This document shows, in pieces, positions 46,466-56,917 of a stretch of 64,000 nt of DNA (positions are counted from its first letter, which is position 1; the number at the start of each line of letters is the position of its first letter). The stretch lies in contig NZ_VUKD01000001.1 in NCBI RefSeq assembly GCF_009193155.1, positions 930,001 through 994,000 of the forward strand, written 5' to 3'. The notes under the pieces were generated by a model. The model was not told the DNA's origin. It saw only the letters and a list, made by a program, of their open reading frames with translations, and searched no databases. Source of the stretch: Georgenia subflava (lineage in GTDB: Bacteria > Actinomycetota > Actinomycetes > Actinomycetales > Actinomycetaceae). Both the position numbers and the translations under genes were made by a program.

Positions 46466-47806
46466 TCAGCAGGTCTCGAGCAGCCGCTTGAGCACCCGGG
46501 CACCGAACTTCACGCCGTCGACCGGCACCCGCTCGTCGACGCCGTGGAAGAGCGGGGCGAAGTCGAGGTCGGCGGGCAGCCGCAGCGGGGCGAAGCCGTA
46601 GCCGTCGATGTCGAGGCGCCGCAGCGCCTTGTTGTCCGTCCCGGCGGAGAGGCAGTACGGGAGCAGGTGCGCCCCCGGGTCCTCGGCGAGGATCGCCTCG
46701 CGCATCGTGTCGACGAACGCGCTCTCCGTGGGGGCGTCCAGGGCGATGCCCAGCTTGTCCACGATGAGCTCGACGTGCTCGCCGGCCAGCTCCCGGATCG
46801 TGTCGAGCATGAGGTCCTGGTGGCCCGGCAGGAAGCGGCAGTCGATGGCCGCCTCGGCGCTTCCCGGGATGACGTTGTTCTTGTAGCCGGCGTCGAGCAT
46901 GGTGAGGTTGGCGCTGTCCTGGAGGGTCCCGGCGACGAAGGCCCGCGCCCCGCCCATGAGCGGCAGGAACTCCTCGATCCGCTCGTCGTCGCGCTCCACG
47001 CCGGTCAGCTCGGTGACGCCGTCGAAGAGCTTCGTGACCGAGGCGACGAACTCGCGCGGCCACTCGTGGGCGTCGATCCGGTCGATGGCACGCGCGAGAC
47101 GCACGATGGCGTTCTCGTCGTTGGGCACCGAGCCGTGGCCGGCCCGCCCCGTCGCCCGGATGCGGATCCAGGCGAAGCCCTTCTCGGCCGTCTGGAGGAG
47201 GTAGGCGCGGACCGGGTCGCCGGTGGTCTTTTCCGGCACCGTGATCGAGTAGCCGCCGACCTCGCTGATGGCCTGGTCGCAGCCCTCGAAGAGCTCCGGG
47301 TGGTGGGTGACGAGCCACTGCGCGCCGTACGTGCCGCCGGCCTCCTCGTCAGCGAAGAACGCGATCACCAGGTCGCGCGGCGGCCTGGTGCCCGTCCGCG
47401 CCATGTGGCGGACGTTGGCGAGGATCATGCCGTTCATGTCCTTCATGTCCACCGCGCCGCGCCCCCAGATCATGCCGTCGCGGATCTCGCCGGAGAACGG
47501 GTCGACGGACCAGTCAGCGGCGTTGGCGGGGACGACGTCGAGGTGGCCGTGGACCACGAGGCCGGGCCGCGAGCGGTCGGCGCCCTCGAGCCGGACGATG
47601 ACGTTGGCGCGCCCGGGCTCGCTCTCGATGAGCGTGGGCGAAAGCCCGACCTCCTGCAGCAGCGTCATGACGTGATCGGCGGCGGCCCGCTCGCCGGGCC
47701 CCGTGCCGTCGCCGAAGTTGGTGGAGTCGATGCGGATCAGCTCCTGGGTGATCCGCACCGCCTCGTCCTCGATGAGGCTGATGGTCTCGTGGCTCTCGTC
47801 GGTCAT
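46466..47806 (-). CDS. M20-family metallopeptidase/amidohydrolase
   Basis: A 446-residue dizinc hydrolase. GHLDVVP (first metal His), RGAVDMKDMN (bridging Asp), ADEEAGGTYG (catalytic Glu pair) and a His near the end (LFHGVDERVP) are visible, with an inserted dimerisation domain near 195-310. M20 enzymes (ArgE, DapE, carboxypeptidase types) remove N-acyl groups or split dipeptides. Here it is the last gene of an operon for an amino-acid-like compound, starting within the stop of the MmgE/PrpD gene (ATGA) and preceded by GGGGAG. A deacylating step in the same pathway is likely. Confidence 0.9.
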   Translation of the reverse strand: MTDESHETISLIEDEAVRITQELIRIDSTNFGDGTGPGERAAADHVMTLLQEVGLSPTLIESEPGRANVIVRLEGADRSRPGLVVHGHLDVVPANAADWSVDPFSGEIRDGMIWGRGAVDMKDMNGMILANVRHMARTGTRPPRDLVIAFFADEEAGGTYGAQWLVTHHPELFEGCDQAISEVGGYSITVPEKTTGDPVRAYLLQTAEKGFAWIRIRATGRAGHGSVPNDENAIVRLARAIDRIDAHEWPREFVASVTKLFDGVTELTGVERDDERIEEFLPLMGGARAFVAGTLQDSANLTMLDAGYKNNVIPGSAEAAIDCRFLPGHQDLMLDTIRELAGEHVELIVDKLGIALDAPTESAFVDTMREAILAEDPGAHLLPYCLSAGTDNKALRRLDIDGYGFAPLRLPADLDFAPLFHGVDERVPVDGVKFGARVLKRLLETC

Positions 47807-49233
47807 GCTGTGCTCCCCTGCCTCGGCGGTGCGGTCTGCTGTCGGTCGGTGGACGGGACGGTCGGGACGGCGGCGTGCAGCGCCTCGACGAGGCTACCCA
47901 CGTCTCCGTCGATCACCCGAACCACCGCCTCGTGGACGGCTGCCGCGGCGCTCGCGCTCCCGGTGGCGGCGACGAGCTTGGCGCGGTGGTCGTCGGGGCC
48001 GAGGGGGTTGCGGGGGCTGCCGCGCGGGTTCTCGACCTCGGCGGCGAGCGTGCGCCCGTCGGCGCGCGTCACCGACACCCGCGACCAGAAGCTGCGCCCG
48101 CCGTCCGCCGCCGGGCCGCGGTCGACGTGCTCGCGGGCGGTGCGCGAGACCAGGGCGTCGACCTCCGGCTCGACCGGCGCGGTCCCGAGGTGCTCGAGGT
48201 CCGGACGGCGACCGGTCAGCTGGAGGGCGACGACGTACTCGACGCTGAACCGCCCCTCCTCGCCGGTGCGCGGCCTGGTGTGCCGCAGCGCGGTGTCGCC
48301 GCCGCGGGGCACCGTGACGACGACGTCCCTGATCTCGTCGACCCGTCCGGTCCTGACGACCTCGGCGAGCGCTCCGCCGGCGAGGCTCGCGGCGGCGTCG
48401 GAGGCGGACATGGCGGCCGAGCAGAACGGGTGCTGCTTGAACCACAGCCCGGGCTCGAGGATCCGCCAGGAGCGGCCCCAGCCCGCGTGGAGCTCGTCGA
48501 GGTCACCGGCGGCGCCGTGGGCCGCGAGGAACCCGGCGCGGGAGTCGAGGAAGTCCGGGTTCGCCTCGGCGCCGGCGAGCGCGAGCTGCACGGCCTGGAC
48601 GGCGGACTGGGCGGCCAGGCCGGCCTGCAGGGGCTTGGCGGAGGTGCCGAACTGCGCGCGCAGCCCGCCGGCCTGCGACGCCGCGAGGCTGACCGCCGTG
48701 GCGGTCGTCGCCGCGTCGAGGCCGAGCAGCCGGCTGCCCGCGACCGCGCCTGCGAGCGCACCGGCGGTGCCGGTCGGGTGCCAGCCGGCCTCGTAGTGGC
48801 GCGGGCCGAGGACCCGCCCGAGACGGGCCATGAGCTCCAGGCCGACGACGTAGGCGTCGAGGACGTCCGCGCCGGCGGAGTCGGGCTCGGCGAGCGCGAG
48901 GAGGGTGGGCACCAGCACCGCCGACGGGTGCCCGCGCACGTGCTCGTGCGTGTCGTCCACGTCGAGCAGATGTGCCTGGAAGCCGCCGACGAGGGCGGCT
49001 GCGCCGGCCGCGACGCCGTCGCGACGGCCGAGGACGGGTCTCGGCCGCGCGGGCACGCCCTGCGCCCGCGCGTACCGCACGAGACGACCGACGGCGGGGT
49101 CGTGGCGCGCCATCAACGACGACGCGACGACGTCCTCGAGCGCGGTCACGGCCGCCGCGCGCGCCGCGGGCGACGGGCGGGCCGTCAGCAGCTCGGTGGT
49201 GAGCGTGCGCCAGTCAGCCGAGGGGGATCTCAA
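47803..49233 (-). CDS. MmgE/PrpD-family protein
   Basis: A 476-residue member of the MmgE/PrpD fold, which includes 2-methylcitrate dehydratase, cis-aconitate decarboxylase and iminodisuccinate epimerase. Visible are DVDDTHEHVRGHPSAVLVPTLLALAE (His-rich active-site segment near 100-125), GWHPTGTAGALAGAV (about 155-169), and QFGTSAKPLQAGLAA (about 193-207), which carries the conserved Lys. No prp genes are nearby. I place the start at TTG 49233, inside the ATPase gene, because the N-terminal helix expected for the family begins there; no ATG or GTG fits. It sits between the ABC importer and the M20 gene, suggesting a dehydration or epimerisation step. Confidence 0.85.
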   Translation of the reverse strand: MRSPSADWRTLTTELLTARPSPAARAAAVTALEDVVASSLMARHDPAVGRLVRYARAQGVPARPRPVLGRRDGVAAGAAALVGGFQAHLLDVDDTHEHVRGHPSAVLVPTLLALAEPDSAGADVLDAYVVGLELMARLGRVLGPRHYEAGWHPTGTAGALAGAVAGSRLLGLDAATTATAVSLAASQAGGLRAQFGTSAKPLQAGLAAQSAVQAVQLALAGAEANPDFLDSRAGFLAAHGAAGDLDELHAGWGRSWRILEPGLWFKQHPFCSAAMSASDAAASLAGGALAEVVRTGRVDEIRDVVVTVPRGGDTALRHTRPRTGEEGRFSVEYVVALQLTGRRPDLEHLGTAPVEPEVDALVSRTAREHVDRGPAADGGRSFWSRVSVTRADGRTLAAEVENPRGSPRNPLGPDDHRAKLVAATGSASAAAAVHEAVVRVIDGDVGSLVEALHAAVPTVPSTDRQQTAPPRQGSTA

Positions 49234-50026
49234 GGGCCCGTTCTCCGCCGTCGTCCTCGGGCGGCTCGGGCCGCCGCGGGCGCTCGGAGCCGGAGCCGAG
49301 CTCGCGCAGGAACCGCCTCGTGCGTTCGTGACGCGGGGCGGCGAGCACCTGCGAGGGCGGTCCCGCCTCCACGACGGACCCGCCGTCCATGAAGACGACC
49401 CGGTCCGCCACCTCGGCGGCGAACGCCATCTCATGGGTGACGATGACCATCGTCGTGTGCTCCTGCGCGAGGGTGCGGATCACGGCGAGCACCTCGTTGA
49501 CGAGCTCGGGGTCGAGCGCCGAGGTCGGCTCGTCGAGCAGGATCGCCTTGGGCCGCACGGCGAGCGCGCGGGCGATGGACACGCGCTGCTGCTGCCCGCC
49601 GGAGAGGGTGATCGGGTACTGCTGGATCGTGTCCTCGCTGAGCCCCACCCGGGTGAGCAGGCGCCGGCCCGTCTCGTCGGCCTCCTTCCGGGGCATCTTC
49701 TTGCCGACGACCAGCGCCTCGGTGACGTTCTGCAGCGCCGTCTTGTTCCGGAACAGGTTGTAGCTCTGGAAGACCATCGCCGTCTGCTGGCGCAGGGCGT
49801 GCGCCTCCTTGGCGGTGTAGCGCGGCGGGTTCACGGTGACGTCGTTGATCGTGATGGTGCCGCCGTCGGGCTCCTCGAGGAGGTTCAGGCAGCGCAGGAG
49901 GGTCGACTTGCCGGAGCCCGAGGGCCCGATGACGGCGACGACGTCGCCCTGCTCCACCTGCAGGTCCACGCCGTCGAGCACGAGGTTCTTCCCGAAGCTC
50001 TTCCGCAGCCCGCGGACGTCGATCAT
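49214..50026 (-). CDS. Polar amino-acid ABC importer, ATPase
   Basis: A 270-residue GlnQ/HisP-type ATPase: Walker A GPSGSGKST, Q-loop FQSYN, signature LSGGQQQR, Walker B ILLDEPTSALDPE, H-loop VTHEM. The last 25 residues are an extra acidic, Pro/Arg-rich tail. ATG 50026 has GGAGGT 10 nt upstream and lies 8 nt after the permease stop. With the permease and binding protein it forms a complete importer for amino acids or amino-dicarboxylates. Confidence 0.94.
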   Translation of the reverse strand: MIDVRGLRKSFGKNLVLDGVDLQVEQGDVVAVIGPSGSGKSTLLRCLNLLEEPDGGTITINDVTVNPPRYTAKEAHALRQQTAMVFQSYNLFRNKTALQNVTEALVVGKKMPRKEADETGRRLLTRVGLSEDTIQQYPITLSGGQQQRVSIARALAVRPKAILLDEPTSALDPELVNEVLAVIRTLAQEHTTMVIVTHEMAFAAEVADRVVFMDGGSVVEAGPPSQVLAAPRHERTRRFLRELGSGSERPRRPEPPEDDGGERALEIPLG

Positions 50027-50034
50027 CAAGGCAC

Positions 50035-50706
50035 TCACCTCCGGTAGGCCCGGCCGAGGAAGGTCTCCAGCCGCTGCTGCAGCCAGGAGTAGACCACCAC
50101 CAGAGCCCAGTAGATCAGGCCCACCACAAGGTAGGTCTCGAAGAAGCGGAACGTGGAGGAGGCGATGATCTTCGCCTCCGCGAACATCTCGGTCAGGCCG
50201 AGCGTGAAGGCGAGCGACGTCTCCTTGATGAGGGAGATGAAGATGTTGCCGGTCGCCGGCAGCGCGTTGTACGCGGCCTGCGGGAGGATCAGCCGCCGGT
50301 AGATCTGGGACTTCGTCATGCCGACGGCGAGGCCCGCCTCGTACTGGCCCTGGTCGACCGACGTCAGCGCGGCGCGGAAGATCTCGGCGAGGTAGGACGC
50401 CTCCTTCAGGCTGAAGCCGATGATGGCCGCCGTCATGGCGTCCATGGTCGACATCACCGGGAAGATCTGCGGCAGCCCGTAGTAGATGATGAAGAGCTGG
50501 ACCAGCGTCGGGATGCCGCGGAACAGCGAGATGTACGCCATCGCGAGCTGGTTGAGCACCGGCACCTCGGTGAACCTGATGATCGCCAGGACCAGCGCGA
50601 TGACCAGGGCGAACGCCATGGACACCACCGCGAGGACGAGGGTGATCGGCAGGTACAGCAGGACCTGCGGCAGGACCTCGAGCATGTACGTCAGGCTGAT
50701 GTCCAT
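50035..50706 (-). CDS. Polar amino-acid ABC importer, permease
   Basis: A 223-residue HisM/GlnP-type permease with about five membrane segments and the ATPase-contact loop EAGLAVGMTKSQIYRRLILPQA-like region (residues about 134-155). The FRGIPTLVQLFIIYYG segment is typical of amino-acid importers. A single permease gene implies a homodimer. ATG 50706 has an AGGTGAGGG site. It is 247 bp downstream of the binding-protein gene, a gap rich in short repeats. Confidence 0.93.
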   Translation of the reverse strand: MDISLTYMLEVLPQVLLYLPITLVLAVVSMAFALVIALVLAIIRFTEVPVLNQLAMAYISLFRGIPTLVQLFIIYYGLPQIFPVMSTMDAMTAAIIGFSLKEASYLAEIFRAALTSVDQGQYEAGLAVGMTKSQIYRRLILPQAAYNALPATGNIFISLIKETSLAFTLGLTEMFAEAKIIASSTFRFFETYLVVGLIYWALVVVYSWLQQRLETFLGRAYRR

Positions 50707-50806
50707 CCCTCACCTCTTCCTCTGCGATGCGTTCTGGTGGACCGTGGTCGTGCGTCCGCCGGGGCGGTCCCGGCTCGCGGCCCGTCCGATCATGCCGTCT
50801 ACGGCC

Positions 50807-50927
50807 GCGCGGCACCGTTCGACCGCCTGGCACCCACCGCGCGGCACCGACGGCGTGGCACCGTTCGCGCGGCGCGTCGGCGCCGCCCGGCGGCCGGCCG
50901 CACGCGGCGGCCTGCCGCGTGGCACCG
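50807..50927. repeat. Short GGCACC repeats between binding protein and permease genes
   Basis: GGCACC, mostly as GCG-C/T-GGCACCG, occurs at about 50811, 50829, 50843, 50857 and 50921 within a 247-bp gap that otherwise has no gene. The gap is very GC-rich and can form hairpins. Such a region may partly stop transcription so that the binding protein is made in excess over the permease. No clear promoter is seen in it. Confidence 0.4.
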
Positions 50928-50953
50928 CCCGGCCGGACGGCGCCACGCGCCGG

Positions 50954-51787
50954 TCACTGCTCCGTGAGCTCGGCCGGCTCGGACGTGATGTCCTCGCCGA
51001 AGTACTTCTCGCTCAGCTCGGCCAGGGTGCCGTCCTCGCGCAGCACGCCGACCTGCTCGGTCAGCGCCGCGTGGAGCTCGGCCCCCTCGTCGGTCTTCGC
51101 CAGCGGGAAGCCGACCCCCTCGTAGGCGATGGGGTCGCCGACCATCTTCAGGGGCGCGTCGGTGCGCTCGATCTCCGCGAGCAGCACGGGGCGCGAGTTG
51201 ATGTAGCCGTCGACGCGGTTGTTGATCACGTCCTGCGTGGCGCCGTCGCGGGTCTCGTAGGTGCGCACCTCGACCCCCGTGCCCGACTCCTCCGCCCAGC
51301 GCTCGAGGTGCGCGGTGTTGTTCGAGCCGAGGACACCGGCGACGGTGCGGCCGGCGAGGTCCTCGAGCTCGTTGATGTCGTCGTTGGCCTCGTTGGTGAC
51401 GATCTGGGCGCCGTAGTAGGCGTAGGGCTCGGTGAAGTCGTAGATCTCCGAGCGCTCCTCGGTGATCGCGACGGCGTTGGCGACGGTGTCGAGCCGGCCG
51501 GCCTCGAGCTGGCCCATCAGCCCGGCGAAGTCGGTGTTGGTCCACTCGACGTCCCAGCCGAGGTTGGCGGCGGCCGTCTCGATGACCTCGACGTCGAAGC
51601 CGATCAGCTCGCCGTCCTCCTGGAAGCTGTTCGGGTAGCTCTGCCCGGTGGACCCCACACGCAGGGTGCGGCTCTCCTCGCCCCCGGCGGCCGCGGTGGT
51701 CTCGTCGTCGGTCGCGGTGCCGGAGCACGCGGCAAGGACGGTGGCGAGGGCTGCTGCCGCGACGGCGACGGTGGTCTTGCGGTTCAT
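50954..51787 (-). CDS. Amino-acid-binding lipoprotein of ABC importer
   Basis: A 277-residue SBP_bac_3-family protein: signal peptide with lipobox LAAC (Cys21 lipidated), then two lobes containing GFDVEVIETAAANLG, FAGLMGQLEAGRLDTVAN and ERSEIYDFTEPYAYYG. The Arg that pairs with the ligand carboxylate is probably in ITEERSEIYDF. It captures the substrate outside the membrane for the importer encoded downstream. ATG 51787 has GGAGGAA 6 nt upstream, 16 nt after the acetyltransferase gene. Confidence 0.92.
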   Translation of the reverse strand: MNRKTTVAVAAAALATVLAACSGTATDDETTAAAGGEESRTLRVGSTGQSYPNSFQEDGELIGFDVEVIETAAANLGWDVEWTNTDFAGLMGQLEAGRLDTVANAVAITEERSEIYDFTEPYAYYGAQIVTNEANDDINELEDLAGRTVAGVLGSNNTAHLERWAEESGTGVEVRTYETRDGATQDVINNRVDGYINSRPVLLAEIERTDAPLKMVGDPIAYEGVGFPLAKTDEGAELHAALTEQVGVLREDGTLAELSEKYFGEDITSEPAELTEQ

Positions 51788-51803
51788 GGGTGTTCCTCCG
51801 TGC

Positions 51804-52325
51804 TCATGGGTGCTGCTGCTGGAATCGCTCGTACGCTGCTGCGTCGAGCACTTTCGTGAGGTAGACGGTGATGTGTCCCCGGCCGAGGTCCGTGCGCCCG
51901 GTCTCCCGGTAGCCCAGGCGGGTGTACATGGCGGTGAGCCAGGGGTGGTGCTCCGCGGTGCCCAGGCTCACCGCAGGGGCGTGGAGCCGCTTGCGCAGGA
52001 CCTCGTCCTCGACGTGCGCGACGAGGCGCTGGGCGTGGCCCTCGCGCTTGCGGTCCGGCGCCGTGGCGATCCAGCCGAGGTGCGGGAGGCCGTACGGCCC
52101 GGGGTTGGGTCCCCAGGGGTACCGCACCGAGACCGAGCTCACGAGCCGCCCCGCGTCCTCGAGCACGTAGACGACGTTCTCGGTGAGGTGCACCGCGACC
52201 TGCTCCGGGCCGGCGCTCGCGGCGGCGAAGTTGATCCCGAGGTCGCGGATCTCGCCGTAGGCCCCGGCGACGAGCTCGGCGTAGGCCGGCAGGTCCTCGG
52301 TGGTCGCGATGCGGATGTCGGACAA
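51804..52325 (-). CDS. GNAT N-acetyltransferase
   Basis: A 173-residue single-domain acetyltransferase. The acetyl-CoA loop is degenerate (APDRKREGHAQRLVAHV); the C-terminal motif is MYTRLGYRETGRTDLG. It probably acetylates an amino group of a small molecule. The start is a TTG one base after the lyase stop, so it depends on translational coupling. In this operon it could N-acetylate the substrate or product, with the M20 enzyme as the opposite step, but this is inference. Confidence 0.82.
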   Translation of the reverse strand: MSDIRIATTEDLPAYAELVAGAYGEIRDLGINFAAASAGPEQVAVHLTENVVYVLEDAGRLVSSVSVRYPWGPNPGPYGLPHLGWIATAPDRKREGHAQRLVAHVEDEVLRKRLHAPAVSLGTAEHHPWLTAMYTRLGYRETGRTDLGRGHITVYLTKVLDAAAYERFQQQHP

Positions 52326-52326
52326 G

Positions 52327-53682
52327 TCAGATGCCTGCCTGCTCGGCCGCGGCGACGACGCGGTCGACGGTCGTCCCGGCGGCGCCGAGGTACTGGAGCG
52401 GGTCGAGCCACTCGGCGATGGCCTCGGCGGAGACCCTGCCGTCGAGGCGGGGATCCTCGCGCAGCACGTCGAGCAGCGGCCGGCCGGTCTCGACGGCGGT
52501 CATGGAGGCGTCGTACACCACCTGGTGCGCCGTCTGCTTGCCGAGGACGCGGCCCACCTCGAACATGACCTTCTCGGAGAGCAGCAGCCCGCCCTGCAGG
52601 TGCAGGTTGCGCGCCATGGCGTCCTTGTTGACGACCAGGCCGGGCAGCACCCTGGCCATGGTGCCCAGCTGGGCCGAGAGGTAGAGGTGCAGCTCCGGCA
52701 GCGAGATCCACTCGGCGCGCCAGCTGATGGCGTCCCGCTCGTGCACCGTGTTCATCGAGTCGAACGTCAGCCCCATCGCGTGCTTCATGGGGTTCGTCAG
52801 GGCGGCGACCCCCTCGAGCAGCGCGGGGTTGCGCTTGTGGGGCATCGTCGTCGAGCCGATCTTGCCGGCCGCGAAGGGCTCCTCGGTCTCGCCGATCTCG
52901 GTCCGCATGAGGTTGGTGAGCTCACCGGCGATCTTGCCGAGGCTCCCGGAGACGAGCGTGAGCACGGCGGCGTACTCGGAGATGCGGTCCCGGGCCGACT
53001 GCCAGGAGATGTTCGGGACGTTCAGGCCCAGGAGCTCGAGGGTGGCGCGCTCGACCTCGGGCCCGGTCTCGCCGAAGGCGGAGTAGGTGCCCACGGCGCC
53101 GTTGACGTTCCCGGTCAGCACCCGGTCCCGCACGGCTGCGAGCCGTTCGAGGTGCCGGACGAACTCGTCGAGCCAGACGGCGACCTTGAAGCCGAAGGTG
53201 GTCGGCAGCGCCTGGACGGCATGGGTGCGGGCGGTCATCGGGGTGTCGCGGTGCTCGACGGCGAGGGCCTTGAGGGCACGGGCGACGGCGAGTGCGTCGC
53301 GCTGGACGAGGTCGAGGCCCTCGCGGACCTGCAGCACCGTGGCGGTGTCGACGACGTCCTGCGTGGTGACGCCGTAGTGCACCCACTCCCCGTGCTCGCC
53401 GGCGGCGCGCTGGAGCGCGCTGACGGTGGCGTTGAGGGAGTGCATGGTCCGCGCCCCCTCCGCGGCGAGCGCCTCGACGTCCAGCCGACCGGCGTCGGCC
53501 GCGCCGCTGATGGCGTCGGCGGCCTCGGCCGGGATGATGCCCAGGGCTGCCTCGGCCCGGGCGAGCGCGCCCTCGACGTCGAGCTGCTTCTGCAGCCGGT
53601 TCCGCTCGTCCCACACGGCGCGCATCTCGGGCGTGCCGAAGCTGTTGCCGATGGTGAGCATGTCGACGACGTGCGATGGCAT
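52327..53682 (-). CDS. Adenylosuccinate-lyase superfamily C-N lyase
   Basis: A 451-residue member of the fumarase/aspartase/PurB superfamily, close to the adenylosuccinate lyase/CMLE branch. Superfamily segments are TMHSLNATVSAL, HYGVTTQDVVDTA (102-114), ARTHAVQALPTT with His154, and the signature loop GSTTMPHKRNP (276-286) with Ser277 kept but the next Ser replaced by Thr. These enzymes eliminate fumarate from an N-succinyl compound. No purine or protocatechuate genes lie nearby; the operon instead has an amino-acid importer and MmgE/PrpD and M20 enzymes, so a different N-succinyl-type substrate is likely. It is the first gene after the operon promoter. Confidence 0.88.
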   Translation of the reverse strand: MPSHVVDMLTIGNSFGTPEMRAVWDERNRLQKQLDVEGALARAEAALGIIPAEAADAISGAADAGRLDVEALAAEGARTMHSLNATVSALQRAAGEHGEWVHYGVTTQDVVDTATVLQVREGLDLVQRDALAVARALKALAVEHRDTPMTARTHAVQALPTTFGFKVAVWLDEFVRHLERLAAVRDRVLTGNVNGAVGTYSAFGETGPEVERATLELLGLNVPNISWQSARDRISEYAAVLTLVSGSLGKIAGELTNLMRTEIGETEEPFAAGKIGSTTMPHKRNPALLEGVAALTNPMKHAMGLTFDSMNTVHERDAISWRAEWISLPELHLYLSAQLGTMARVLPGLVVNKDAMARNLHLQGGLLLSEKVMFEVGRVLGKQTAHQVVYDASMTAVETGRPLLDVLREDPRLDGRVSAEAIAEWLDPLQYLGAAGTTVDRVVAAAEQAGI

Positions 53683-53724
53683 GGGGTCCCTCTCTGTCGG
53701 TACCGGCGACTGGAGGCACCACCT

Positions 53725-53764
53725 GCGTCCAGCAAGCGGACGCGACGGCTCGCCCTGTGGGCGA
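53725..53764 (-). other. Two hairpins in the leader of the lyase operon
   Basis: In the roughly 90-nt leader there are two perfect stems: GCGTCC/GGACGC with a 7-nt loop (53725-53743) and TCGCCC/GGGCGA with a 3-nt loop (53750-53764). They precede the start codon by about 45-80 nt. They could form a cis-acting regulatory RNA or only stabilise the mRNA. I recognise no known riboswitch class. Confidence 0.4.
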
Positions 53765-53780
53765 CAGCCTGCCTCGAGCG

Positions 53781-53808
53781 AGGCTAACGGCCGGGCCGCG
53801 CTGTTTCA
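53781..53808 (-). promoter_or_regulatory. Promoter of lyase-importer operon
   Basis: On the minus strand, TGAAAC (53803-53808) and TAGCCT (53781-53786) are 16 bp apart, placing the start of transcription about 90 nt before the lyase gene. This supports the lyase, acetyltransferase, importer, MmgE/PrpD and M20 genes being a unit separate from the upstream dehydrogenase gene. Confidence 0.6.
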
Positions 53809-53859
53809 TTCCCGGGACCAGCCACGTCCCGCGACCTGAGACGAGCCGGGCCCGCGACG

Positions 53860-56751
53860 TCAGCGGGTGATCTCCTCCAGCAGCTCGAGCACGTGTCGGT
53901 ACGGCCGCGACGTCGCCGACGTCATGCCCATCTCGCAGGTGCGGTTGCAGGAGGCGTAGGCCTCGAAGGCTCCGCGCTCGCGCTCGACGGCGGCGAGCTC
54001 CGCCGCCTCCGCCTCGTTCGCGCCCGCCGGGAGCTCGGGGTGCAGCATGCCGCGGTCGCCGGCGGTGCCGCAGCAGCCCCAGGTCGCCGGCACGGTCACG
54101 TCCTCCGCCACCGCGGCGGCGACCTCCACGAGGTCCTCGACCATGCCGAGGTGCACCGCCGAGCAGGTCGGGTGCACCGCCATCGTCGCCAGGCGCCGGC
54201 CCGGGTCGACGTCGAGCGCGGGCAGCAGGTGCGTGCGTGCGTAGGTGACCGCGTCCACCAGCTGCAGGCTCGCCCACCGCTCGGCGAGCTCGCCCTCGAG
54301 CCGCCCGCCGATGCCGTCCAGACCGTGGGTGCAGCTCGACGCGTCGCACACCAGCGGCACCCGGCCGCCGTCGGTCAGGTCCCACACGACCTCGGCGACG
54401 TTGCGGGCCATGGTCGCGGCGCCGTCGACGAGTCCCTTGGACTCCCACACGGTGCCGCAGCACAGCGAGTCGATCCCGGGCGGCACCGCGACCGCGAGGC
54501 CGGCCCGCTCGCACAGCCGCAGGAACGCCGCGCCGGCGCCGAGCCCGTCGCCCTCGGCGGCGAAGATCGAGCCGATGCAGGCGGGGAAGAACACCAGGTC
54601 CGGCGGTGCCGTCTGCCCGACGGCGGCCGAGGCGGCGGCCGCCTCCGCGCGCGAGCCCCCGGGGCCGGGCAGGTCGTCGCCGAGCTCCGGGACCCAGTCG
54701 CGCAGCGTCTCGCCGGCGACGGCGCGCAGCGCCCTGGTCGTGGCGCGCAGCACCGGTCCCGGGACGGCGTCGGCGACGCTCAGCGCCCCGCGCAGCGCCG
54801 CCGTCGTGGGCCCCCACGACTTCGCGAGGAGGTCGCCCGCCGCGCGCACCGGCGCGGGGTTGGCGGCGGCCCGGAGCTCCTTCATCACCTTGCCGGTGTC
54901 GATCCCCACCGGGCACGCGAGAGAGCACAGCGAGTCGGCGGCACAGGTCTGCACGGCCGAGTAGGTGTAGTCGCGCTCGAGCTCGGCCCGCCGCTCGGGG
55001 GCGGCGACGGCCATCTCGCGCAGCAGCACGATGCGCTGGCGCGGCGTGGTCGTGGTGCTGCGCGACGGGCACACCGGCTCGCAGTAGCCGCACTCGACGC
55101 ACCGGTCCACGTCCGGGTGCGCGGCCGGGAAGGTCTTGATGTTCTTCAGGTGCGCGCGAGGGTCCTCGTCCAGCACGACCCCGGGGCTCAGCACGCCGGC
55201 GGGGTCGCACAGCCGCTTGACCTCGCGCATCACGTCGTAGAGCTCGTCGCCGTACTGCCGGCGCACGTACGGGGCCATGATGCGCCCGGTGCCGTGCTCG
55301 GCCTTGAGCGAGCCGTCCGCGCCGAGGATGAGGTCCACCAGGTCCTCGGTGAAGGCGGCGTAGGCGTCGAGCTCGGCACGCACGTCCAGGCGCGGGTTGA
55401 TCTGGAAGTGCAGGTTGGCGTCCTTGGCGTGCCCGAAGATGACAGCGTCGTCGTAGCCGTACCTCTCCAGCAGGACGCCGAGGTCCTTCACGGCGCGAGG
55501 CAGCGCCGGCGGCGGGACCACGATGTCCTCCAGCAGGGCGGTGGTGCCCTGCGGGCGTGCCCCGGCGACGGCGGCGTAGAGCACCTTGCGGGTGACCCAC
55601 ATGCGGGCCCGCGCGGTGGGATCGGTCGTCAGGTCGGCCGGGGCGCTCAGGTCCAGGCCCGCGACGACCGGCCGGATCCGCTCGGTGGCCGCGGACAGGC
55701 CGTCCGCGGTGGCGTCCTGGACCTCCACCAGCAGCGCGGTGTGCTCCTGGACCGTCAGGGCCCGCATGGTCTCGGGCGACTTCGGGTCCCGTTGGGAGAC
55801 CCGCAGGGAGGAGGCGTCGAGCAGCTCGACGGCGACGGCCCCGGCCTCGGTGAGCGGGATGATCGCGTCGGTCGCGCGGTCGATGGAGTCGAAGACGCAC
55901 AGCGCCGTCGCCGCGTGCGGCAGCGCGGGCACGGTCCGCAGCGTGACCTCGGCGACGTAGGCCAGGGTGCCCTCGGAGCCGATGACCAGGTGCGCGAGGA
56001 TGTCGACGGCGGAGTCGTGGTCGAGGAGCGCGTTGAGGCCGTAGCCCATCGTGTTCTTCATCGAGAACTGGTGCTCGATGCGCGCGCGCAGCCGCGCGTC
56101 GGAGCGCACCCGGTCGCGCAGCCCCAGCAGCCCGGCGTGGAGCTCGGGCTCGAGGCCGCGCAGCAGGGCGTCGGCGTCCGGGCGGGCGGTGTCGATCACC
56201 GTGCCGGAGGGCAGCACGAGCACCATCGACTCGAGCGTGCGGTAGGCGGTGGCGGAGGTGCCCGACGTCATCCCCGAGGAGTTGTTCGCGACGACCCCGC
56301 CGATCGTGCAGGCGATCTCGCTCGCGGGGTCCGGCCCGAGCCGGCGACCGTACCGGGTCAGGGCGGCGTTGACCCGCCGGAGCACCGCGCCGGGCTGGCA
56401 GCGGACCCGCGCGCCGTCGTCGAGGACCTCGACCTCGGCGAGGTGACGACGCACGTCCACGAGCACACCTTCGGTGACGCCCTGCCCGGACAACGACGTG
56501 CCGCCGGCACGGAACGTCAGCGCGGTGCCGGTGCGGGTGGCCTCGGCCAGCACGGCGGCGACCTGCTCGGTGGAGGTGGCGGTCACCACGGCCGCCGGGG
56601 TGAGCAGGTAGTGCGACGCGTCGTGGGCGAGCCGGGCACGGTCGGCGACGGCGGTGGAGACGTTGCCGCTGCCGGCCGCACGAGCGATCACGGCGAGGCC
56701 GGCCTCCGCCGGCGCGAGGGGAGGTGCCGGGGCGTCGTCGGCGACGGTCAT
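53860..56751 (-). CDS. FAD-linked/4Fe-4S D-2-hydroxyacid dehydrogenase
   Basis: A 963-residue fusion. The N-terminal half (about 1-530) is a FAD-binding type 4 oxidase (PAAVVTATSTEQVAAVL, FRAGGTSLSGQG, GSEGTLAYVAEV). It is followed by two 4Fe-4S motifs (CVECGYCEPVCP and CAADSLCSLACPVG, near 570-650) and two CCG domains (CCGTVWESKG, CCGTAGDRGM). This layout is that of the large D-lactate/D-2-hydroxyglutarate dehydrogenases, which oxidise a D-2-hydroxyacid and pass electrons to quinone. ATG 56751 is chosen over an upstream in-frame start because of GGAAGGG upstream. It may have its own role, as a promoter separates it from the lyase operon. Confidence 0.9.
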   Translation of the reverse strand: MTVADDAPAPPLAPAEAGLAVIARAAGSGNVSTAVADRARLAHDASHYLLTPAAVVTATSTEQVAAVLAEATRTGTALTFRAGGTSLSGQGVTEGVLVDVRRHLAEVEVLDDGARVRCQPGAVLRRVNAALTRYGRRLGPDPASEIACTIGGVVANNSSGMTSGTSATAYRTLESMVLVLPSGTVIDTARPDADALLRGLEPELHAGLLGLRDRVRSDARLRARIEHQFSMKNTMGYGLNALLDHDSAVDILAHLVIGSEGTLAYVAEVTLRTVPALPHAATALCVFDSIDRATDAIIPLTEAGAVAVELLDASSLRVSQRDPKSPETMRALTVQEHTALLVEVQDATADGLSAATERIRPVVAGLDLSAPADLTTDPTARARMWVTRKVLYAAVAGARPQGTTALLEDIVVPPPALPRAVKDLGVLLERYGYDDAVIFGHAKDANLHFQINPRLDVRAELDAYAAFTEDLVDLILGADGSLKAEHGTGRIMAPYVRRQYGDELYDVMREVKRLCDPAGVLSPGVVLDEDPRAHLKNIKTFPAAHPDVDRCVECGYCEPVCPSRSTTTTPRQRIVLLREMAVAAPERRAELERDYTYSAVQTCAADSLCSLACPVGIDTGKVMKELRAAANPAPVRAAGDLLAKSWGPTTAALRGALSVADAVPGPVLRATTRALRAVAGETLRDWVPELGDDLPGPGGSRAEAAAASAAVGQTAPPDLVFFPACIGSIFAAEGDGLGAGAAFLRLCERAGLAVAVPPGIDSLCCGTVWESKGLVDGAATMARNVAEVVWDLTDGGRVPLVCDASSCTHGLDGIGGRLEGELAERWASLQLVDAVTYARTHLLPALDVDPGRRLATMAVHPTCSAVHLGMVEDLVEVAAAVAEDVTVPATWGCCGTAGDRGMLHPELPAGANEAEAAELAAVERERGAFEAYASCNRTCEMGMTSATSRPYRHVLELLEEITR

Positions 56752-56917
56752 GCAGGGGCCCTTCCTGGCTGGGTGCGTGCGCCACCACTCTGCCACCGCC
56801 CGCCCCGGGTGGCGGTCGGTGAGCGCCGTGCGAGCGCCCGTGAACCGCTCCTGGAGCGTCCCTGCGTCGTGTCAAACGATCCAGGTCCCGTTCCGGTTCC
56901 GCCAGACGGTCATCCCC

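Follow-up and report, generated by a model that had tools for sequence, protein, structure and literature searches.

A predicted lyase-type S-(2-succino)cysteine operon in Georgenia subflava and a candidate epimerase role for its YxeQ homologue

Introduction

When fumarate succinates cysteine, the damage is stable, and the modification serves as a disease biomarker (PMC9706529). Few enzymes that undo the succination of cysteine are known. The yxe (scm) operon of the Bacillus subtilis group encodes the monooxygenase YxeK, which yields oxaloacetate, and the amidohydrolase YxeP. Some yxe loci hold an S-(2-succino) lyase (2SL) instead of YxeK; the lyases of Enterococcus italicus and Dickeya dadantii complement a yxeK mutant and convert N-acetyl-S-(2-succino)cysteine (N-acetyl-2SC) to fumarate and N-acetylcysteine, and the pathway is one of C-S cleavage in which a GNAT acetyltransferase acts before the lyase and an M20 enzyme after it (PMC9706529). 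Three M20 enzymes of B. subtilis deacetylate N-acetylcysteine (PMC12757645, published in 2025). Here, seven open minus-strand genes at 46466-53682 of a 64-kb window (the whole stretch of DNA that was analysed) on Georgenia subflava contig NZ_VUKD01000001.1 are described, which, judged from gene content and homology, very probably form an operon of the 2SL type for the metabolism of S-(2-succino)cysteine (2SC), by a pathway described in bacteria only recently. The kind of system is known, whereas the host is new and one enzyme is exchanged: an actinomycete here has the lyase route together with another type of M20 enzyme. The locus further yields a concrete functional hypothesis for YxeQ; should that hypothesis hold, natural 2SC could be broken down completely only with an epimerase.

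Gene content and proposed pathway

The genes are transcribed in the order lyase (52327-53682, 451 amino acids, start ATG 53682), GNAT acetyltransferase (51804-52325, TTG start), substrate-binding lipoprotein-type protein (50954-51787), ABC permease (50035-50706), ABC ATPase (49214-50026, start ATG 50026), MmgE/PrpD-family protein (47803-49233, 476 amino acids, inferred start TTG 49233) and M20 amidohydrolase (46466-47806), all on the minus strand. The ATPase sequence used in the comparisons lacked its first two residues. The seven products belong to the Pfam families Lyase_1 and ADSL_C, GNAT (Acetyltransf_1), SBP_bac_3, BPD_transp_1, ABC_tran, MmgE_PrpD N and C, and Peptidase_M20, respectively. 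Gaps of 1 nt (lyase/GNAT), 16 nt (GNAT/binding protein), 247 nt (binding protein/permease) and 8 nt (permease/ATPase) are followed by overlaps of 20 nt (ATPase/MmgE, counted from TTG 49233) and 4 nt (MmgE/M20). An earlier reading of the letters and translations by a model (the sequence-only reading) had given these families and this spacing, with the 247-bp gap as the one exception to overlaps and short gaps, and both agree with the sequence; of the span that it gave, 46466-53808, the start holds, but the end includes 126 bp of DNA upstream of the lyase.

With the B. spizizenii locus (L112) as the reference yxe operon and gene letters set by order and homology, L, M, N, O and Q were found to be homologous at 41-62% identity. 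The acetyltransferase is 45.5% identical to B. spizizenii YxeL over 156 amino acids, the binding protein 49.6% to YxeM, the permease 60% to YxeN, the ATPase 62% to YxeO and the MmgE/PrpD protein 41.6% to YxeQ (E 2.5e-76). At a threshold of E 1e-3, blastp matched neither YxeK nor YxeP to any protein of the window. Compared with the B. subtilis-group operon, L, MNO and Q are therefore present, whereas K is absent, its place being taken by a lyase that would release fumarate, and P is replaced by another M20 enzyme. The lyase, YxeL-type GNAT, YxeMNO importer and M20 enzyme are shared with the 2SL-type loci of D. dadantii and E. italicus (PMC9706529), and the order 2SL-L-M-N-O with the locus of Dickeya oryzae. 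The M20 enzyme differs from that of these loci in being of the PRK07906 type and not YxeP, and YxeQ, which is on another contig in D. oryzae, lies within the Georgenia operon.

In the pathway proposed, the MNO transporter would take up 2SC, in which fumarate has been added to the cysteine thiol, and the GNAT enzyme would N-acetylate it; the lyase would then split N-acetyl-2SC to fumarate and N-acetylcysteine, and the M20 enzyme would turn the latter into cysteine by deacetylation. Acetylation, cleavage and deacetylation are published for homologues and are assigned here by orthology. Two further steps go beyond the literature: the YxeQ-type protein would epimerise the succino carbon, making both diastereomers cleavable, and the PRK07906-type M20 enzyme would take over the job of YxeP. 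An operon for uptake and cleavage, with acylation and deacylation handled by GNAT and M20 enzymes, was what the sequence-only reading had proposed, and both parts are borne out by homology to the yxe gene set and by the published 2SC pathway (PMC9706529).

The lyase, importer and M20 enzyme

The operon lyase is 61% identical to a D. oryzae lyase that sits in a 2SL-L-M-N-O-P locus and was used as a stand-in for the assayed D. dadantii enzyme. It carries the superfamily loop GSTTMPHKRNP. In a tree of 60 lyases, made by a quick method with no bootstrap, with some long branches and with L099 (71 amino acids) and L131 (partial) dropped, the 24 yxe-linked lyases, including that of the operon, formed one clade with a Shimodaira-Hasegawa-like approximate likelihood ratio (SH-aLRT) support of 99. 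This clade spans Actinomycetota, Bacillota, Pseudomonadota and Deferribacterota, and the operon lyase adjoins that of Brachybacterium nesterenkovii within it. Being of lyase class I and encoded at a yxe locus where YxeK would otherwise stand, the operon lyase fits the definition of a 2SL.

Several model scores weigh against this identification of the operon. On the general purB model TIGR00928 the lyase reaches 365 bits, above the cut-off of 326. The best NCBIfam models for the importer are all cystine models and none reaches its cut-off: PRK11260 for the binding protein (165 bits, cut-off 312), the permease model PRK15100 (209 bits, cut-off 300) and the TcyN model PRK11264 for the ATPase (321 bits, cut-off 406). 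The M20 enzyme matches PRK07906 (666 bits, cut-off 382) and is not of the TIGR01891 type, to which YxeP itself belongs (415 bits).

That the lyase is a spare PurB or PcaB, for which the TIGR00928 match and the purB annotation of close plasmid relatives might speak, has next to no probability. The lyase of the D. oryzae 2SL locus passes TIGR00928 likewise (367 bits), so this model does not discriminate, and the operon lyase stays under both PcaB cut-offs (405 of 595 bits and 292 of 356 bits). A separate PurB is encoded in the genome (L004; PRK09285, 638 bits, cut-off 446), as is ArgH. A PurB or PcaB role was rejected on account of the separate PurB and the clade placement. The sequence-only reading's proposal of a fumarate-releasing PurB-superfamily lyase distinct from the genome's PurB is upheld at the level of sequence, and of what it had named as refuting it, a lyase that complements a purB mutant in a genome with no other purB, the second part is contradicted by L004. 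The accompanying claim that purine and propionate genes are absent is correct locally and wrong for the genome as a whole, which encodes, besides PurB, a PrpD homologue (L086, 861 bits, under the cut-off of 950); a propionate role for the operon was rejected on account of this separate homologue. Since close relatives of the lyase carry a purB annotation, 2SL loci are easily overlooked.

The second-best model for the lyase was that of XcbD, a 3-sulfopropionylcysteine synthase (NF052536, 436 bits, under the cut-off of 600). XcbD belongs to the same superfamily of lyases, and its name likewise points to a cysteine thioether; however, an actinobacterial lyase that passes the XcbD model (L007, 673 bits) falls in a clade apart from the yxe-linked lyases. 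L007 and its kin L008-L013, seven actinomycete lyases of the same class among which only L007 was scanned, form the sister group to the yxe-linked 2SL clade plus Variovorax, and L007 has no yxe genes nearby. The Variovorax paradoxus lyase (L188, plasmid positions 8001-9338, 49% identity) is 2SL-like and branches immediately outside the yxe-linked clade; some 4 kb from its gene there is a weak YxeQ-like match (31%). The Georgenia genome also encodes a divergent ArgH-like lyase (L005, G000:C3:347882-348469, minus strand; TIGR00838, 218 bits, under the cut-off of 279.5).

By its position, the operon M20 enzyme should be the N-acetylcysteine deacetylase that replaces YxeP. It weakly resembles aminoacylase-1 in the PDB (E 2.4e-14), ranked behind a desuccinylase (E 1.3e-14); the former likeness fits a deacetylase role and proves nothing. 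Two YxeP-like amidohydrolases are encoded elsewhere in the genome (G000:C4:488208-489341 and G000:C3:924864-925904; 36% and 34% identity), and these could perform or share the deacetylation instead.

The genome further encodes the mycothiol amidase Mca (444 bits, cut-off 277), an enzyme that turns mycothiol S-conjugates into N-acetylcysteine S-conjugates (PMC4267739). With Mca present, N-acetyl-2SC may arise from succinated mycothiol without the GNAT step, and in mycothiol-using actinomycetes the operon could also clear succinated mycothiol by this route.

Family, residues and fold of YxeQ

YxeQ is given as of 'unknown function' in PMC9706529, is not named in the available main text of PMC12757645 and is entered as 'Uncharacterized protein YxeQ' in PMC8752978. 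A literature search for a function of YxeQ (ScmQ) or for 2SC stereochemistry found no functional assignment in the text it covered, most subscription papers lying outside its scope, and a search for 2SC with diastereomers turned up a single, unrelated paper and no stereochemical study. The operon protein has as its best PDB sequence match 7bra (276 bits), followed by iminodisuccinate epimerase (152 bits). The structure 7bra was taken as YxeQ because 396 residues of it align with B. spizizenii YxeQ at 93% identity. In the MmgE trees, for which 24 of the 80 fetched YxeQ proteins were used and which held 25 of 81 YxeQ-type proteins, the operon protein fell inside the YxeQ clade (support 99 in a clean rerun), with the RGHP and HY motifs. 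Iminodisuccinate epimerase, which is only 28% identical to the operon protein, lies beside the clade and not inside it, at an unresolved fork (support 93).

Iminodisuccinate epimerase, an enzyme of the MmgE/PrpD fold, works together with a fumarate-releasing C-N lyase. The sequence-only reading had on this analogy proposed uptake and C-N cleavage of an N-substituted compound, such as an N-succinyl amino acid like iminodisuccinate, with the MmgE/PrpD protein as epimerase, and had left the exact substrate unnamed. Enzymes of the PurB superfamily mostly cleave succino groups at a C-N or C-O bond, and the active-site arginine is common to the operon protein and iminodisuccinate epimerase. L, M, N, O, Q and the lyase, however, all have their nearest homologues in the 2SC operon, and the MmgE/PrpD protein is closer to YxeQ than to iminodisuccinate epimerase, which makes an N-succinyl substrate improbable. 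The orthologous gene set is that of the 2SC pathway, in which a C-S bond is cut, and on this basis the substrate can be named as 2SC. The analogy to iminodisuccinate epimerase itself is sustained by fold and active-site residues, with the difference that the succino group is N-linked there and would be S-linked here.

A two-base mechanism has been described for iminodisuccinate epimerase and methylsuccinate isomerase (PMC12290011). The His/Tyr pair of proposed bases and the RGHP arginine are present in the operon protein as H102, Y147 and R100 (numbered from the TTG start). Residues H88, D91, H102, H152, K200, K266 and C271 were found in 80/80 YxeQ-type proteins (K200 lying within a pattern used in the search), and Y147 and R100 in 79/80. 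The arginine is shared with iminodisuccinate epimerase and occurs in 0/30 other MmgE/PrpD homologues; tyrosine in the Y147 column is less telling, being present in 23/30 of these. The genome's own PrpD has histidine in the tyrosine column and tyrosine in the arginine column. An AlphaFold model of the operon protein (mean predicted local distance difference test score 91) gave 7bra as its best fold match (template modelling (TM) scores 0.85/0.90), followed by iminodisuccinate epimerase (0.82/0.87).

The structure 7bra was published as 'B. subtilis IRG1', with cis-aconitate docked in it and with active-site residues fully conserved with iminodisuccinate epimerase (PMC7347537). A cis-aconitate decarboxylase, which would make itaconate, is nevertheless a very improbable identity for the operon protein. 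The name and the docking favour it, as does a PDB match of the operon lyase (297 bits) to trans-aconitate decarboxylase from a fungus. Against it, two residues important in the human IRG1 decarboxylase are missing in 7bra (PMC7347537), and a 2025 study (PMC12290011) does not group the B. subtilis protein with the decarboxylase clades, the available text giving no evidence that it is active and ascribing to it an 'as yet undetermined function'. In our trees the one decarboxylase row, a partial sequence on a long branch, fell outside the Q clade, and the neighbouring genes make no sense for itaconate. An itaconate role was rejected on these grounds.

Genomic association of YxeQ and the epimerase proposal

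A scan of genome contigs with a YxeQ alignment, in which one search pattern included Lys200, gave 530 related loci; the best 80 were taken, which are not an even sample. Among these 80, a 2SL gene was found at 21, a YxeK homologue at 55 and neither at 4. Either enzyme was thus encoded near YxeQ in 76/80 loci, within 5 kb in 75 of the 76, versus 0/20 control MmgE loci; the controls were 20 of 31 matched non-own genomes, came from the window's own phylum and had at least 5 kb on both sides in only 13 cases. Of the four loci with neither, L099 has a short piece of a 2SL gene, L113 is cut off by the edge of its contig, L114 truly shows neither, and L150 is from D. oryzae, in which the 2SL is on another contig. 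Since 31 of the 55 YxeK loci lack both L and P, YxeQ appears to follow the enzyme that removes the succino group and not the acetyl steps, and since YxeK gives oxaloacetate and 2SL fumarate, it most simply acts on their shared substrate.

Of 99 genomes from the D. oryzae family, 6 have a close 2SL (at least 70% identity) and 2 a close YxeK (at least 72%), one genome having both; YxeQ is present in 7. YxeQ occurred in 6/7 genomes with 2SL or YxeK versus 1/92 others (Fisher 4e-8; 6e-7 once 35 genomes smaller than 2 Mb are set aside). The identity cut behind these figures was chosen afterwards, related genomes do not count as independent, and in G897 both matches are partial. When the cut of the search itself was applied, YxeQ was found in 5/9 genomes with a 2SL match versus 2/90 (p 3e-5). 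The link is not merely positional, since in three of these genomes YxeQ and 2SL are on different contigs or some 500 kb apart.

Fumarate adds to thiols without stereocontrol, and the lyase is expected to be stereospecific. We propose, with rather more confidence than doubt, that YxeQ (ScmQ) is a 2SC or N-acetyl-2SC epimerase, converting the succino-carbon configuration that is not used by 2SL or YxeK; residues, fold and gene association point to this role. The earlier substrates in PMC9706529 were made chemically and the later ones with 2SL itself, and a stereochemical bottleneck would escape assays of the latter kind. This fits a hidden need for an epimerase and does not prove it.

Other results run counter to the epimerase proposal. 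The decarboxylase folds match the AlphaFold model as well as, or nearly as well as, the epimerase does (TM 0.82/0.87). Three 2SL loci, those of D. oryzae (where it is present elsewhere in the genome), Pantoea piersonii and Niallia taxi, lack YxeQ, and so does genome G933 although 2SL and YxeK are both encoded there; YxeQ is consequently not strictly needed. Genome G891 has YxeQ with neither 2SL nor YxeK.

YxeQ might otherwise be a second eliminase or lyase that expels the thiol from the diastereomer left by 2SL or YxeK. MmgE/PrpD enzymes include dehydratases, 2-methylcitrate dehydratase having the same fold; 11/102 yxe loci have been listed with neither YxeK nor 2SL (PMC9706529), and locus L114 has M-N-O-P-Q with neither. 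This alternative is unlikely given that the His/Tyr pair and the arginine match the epimerase, whereas the genome's PrpD differs in the tyrosine and arginine columns, and that a dedicated cleaving enzyme is present in 76/80 loci.

Conservation and distribution

Exactly the operon's order, 2SL-L-M-N-O-Q-M20, was found in B. nesterenkovii (L093), with identities of 68, 45, 62, 78, 72, 53 and 67%, respectively; all seven genes are shared, including the PRK07906-type M20 gene, and no difference in content was seen. Among the loci compared, the PRK07906-type M20 gene occurs only in Brachybacterium. Several Firmicutes have the order 2SL-L-M-N-O-P-Q, with YxeP where Georgenia has its M20 enzyme. Because the order recurs in Brachybacterium and, with YxeP, in several Firmicutes, the operon is more than a chance arrangement. 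A gene order conserved in no relative, which the sequence-only reading had named as refuting it, is thus not what was found.

In 59 genomes (the host, 8 of its genus, 28 of its family and 22 of its order), a close match to the lyase was found in the host only; lyases of 33-36% identity were found in three of the others. This sporadic presence suggests horizontal transfer, although a GC content profile (G plus C) showed no clear boundary. Same-class lyase homologues at L036-L055 (20/29 non-own match loci, 34-44% identity) were rejected as instances of the same system, since L, M, N, Q and M20 genes were absent from the up to 9 kb inspected around each lyase; three had weak ATPase matches. A 2SL search of the class to which B. 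spizizenii belongs (348 genomes) gave 0 matches, an outcome that shows nothing either way.

The 31 YxeK loci without YxeL and YxeP (among L093-L172; Rhizobiales, Burkholderiales, Methylobacterium, Erwinia and others) combine YxeQ and YxeK, mostly with an ABC importer, and are possibly an acetylation-free version of the pathway or one for a different substrate. On a Niallia taxi plasmid (L187) and in G933, 2SL lies beside a YxeK homologue without YxeQ.

Upstream region and a further MmgE/PrpD locus

The operon is preceded by a 177-bp intergenic stretch (53683-53859, minus strand), which is presumed to bear the promoter; a consensus promoter scan found nothing promoter-like in it, and an Rfam scan gave 0 matches. 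Upstream lies a gene (53860-56796, minus strand) for a flavin adenine dinucleotide (FAD)-linked oxidase fused to an iron-sulphur domain, of the glycolate oxidase or D-2-hydroxyacid dehydrogenase type. It was rejected as an operon member, having no counterpart in the Brachybacterium locus and lying 177 bp away. On a Paracoccus yeei plasmid (L091, NZ_CP044079.1, 7758-11902), three consecutive MmgE/PrpD genes come after an amino-acid ABC importer and are followed by genes for a glutathione S-transferase and a 4-oxalomesaconate tautomerase.

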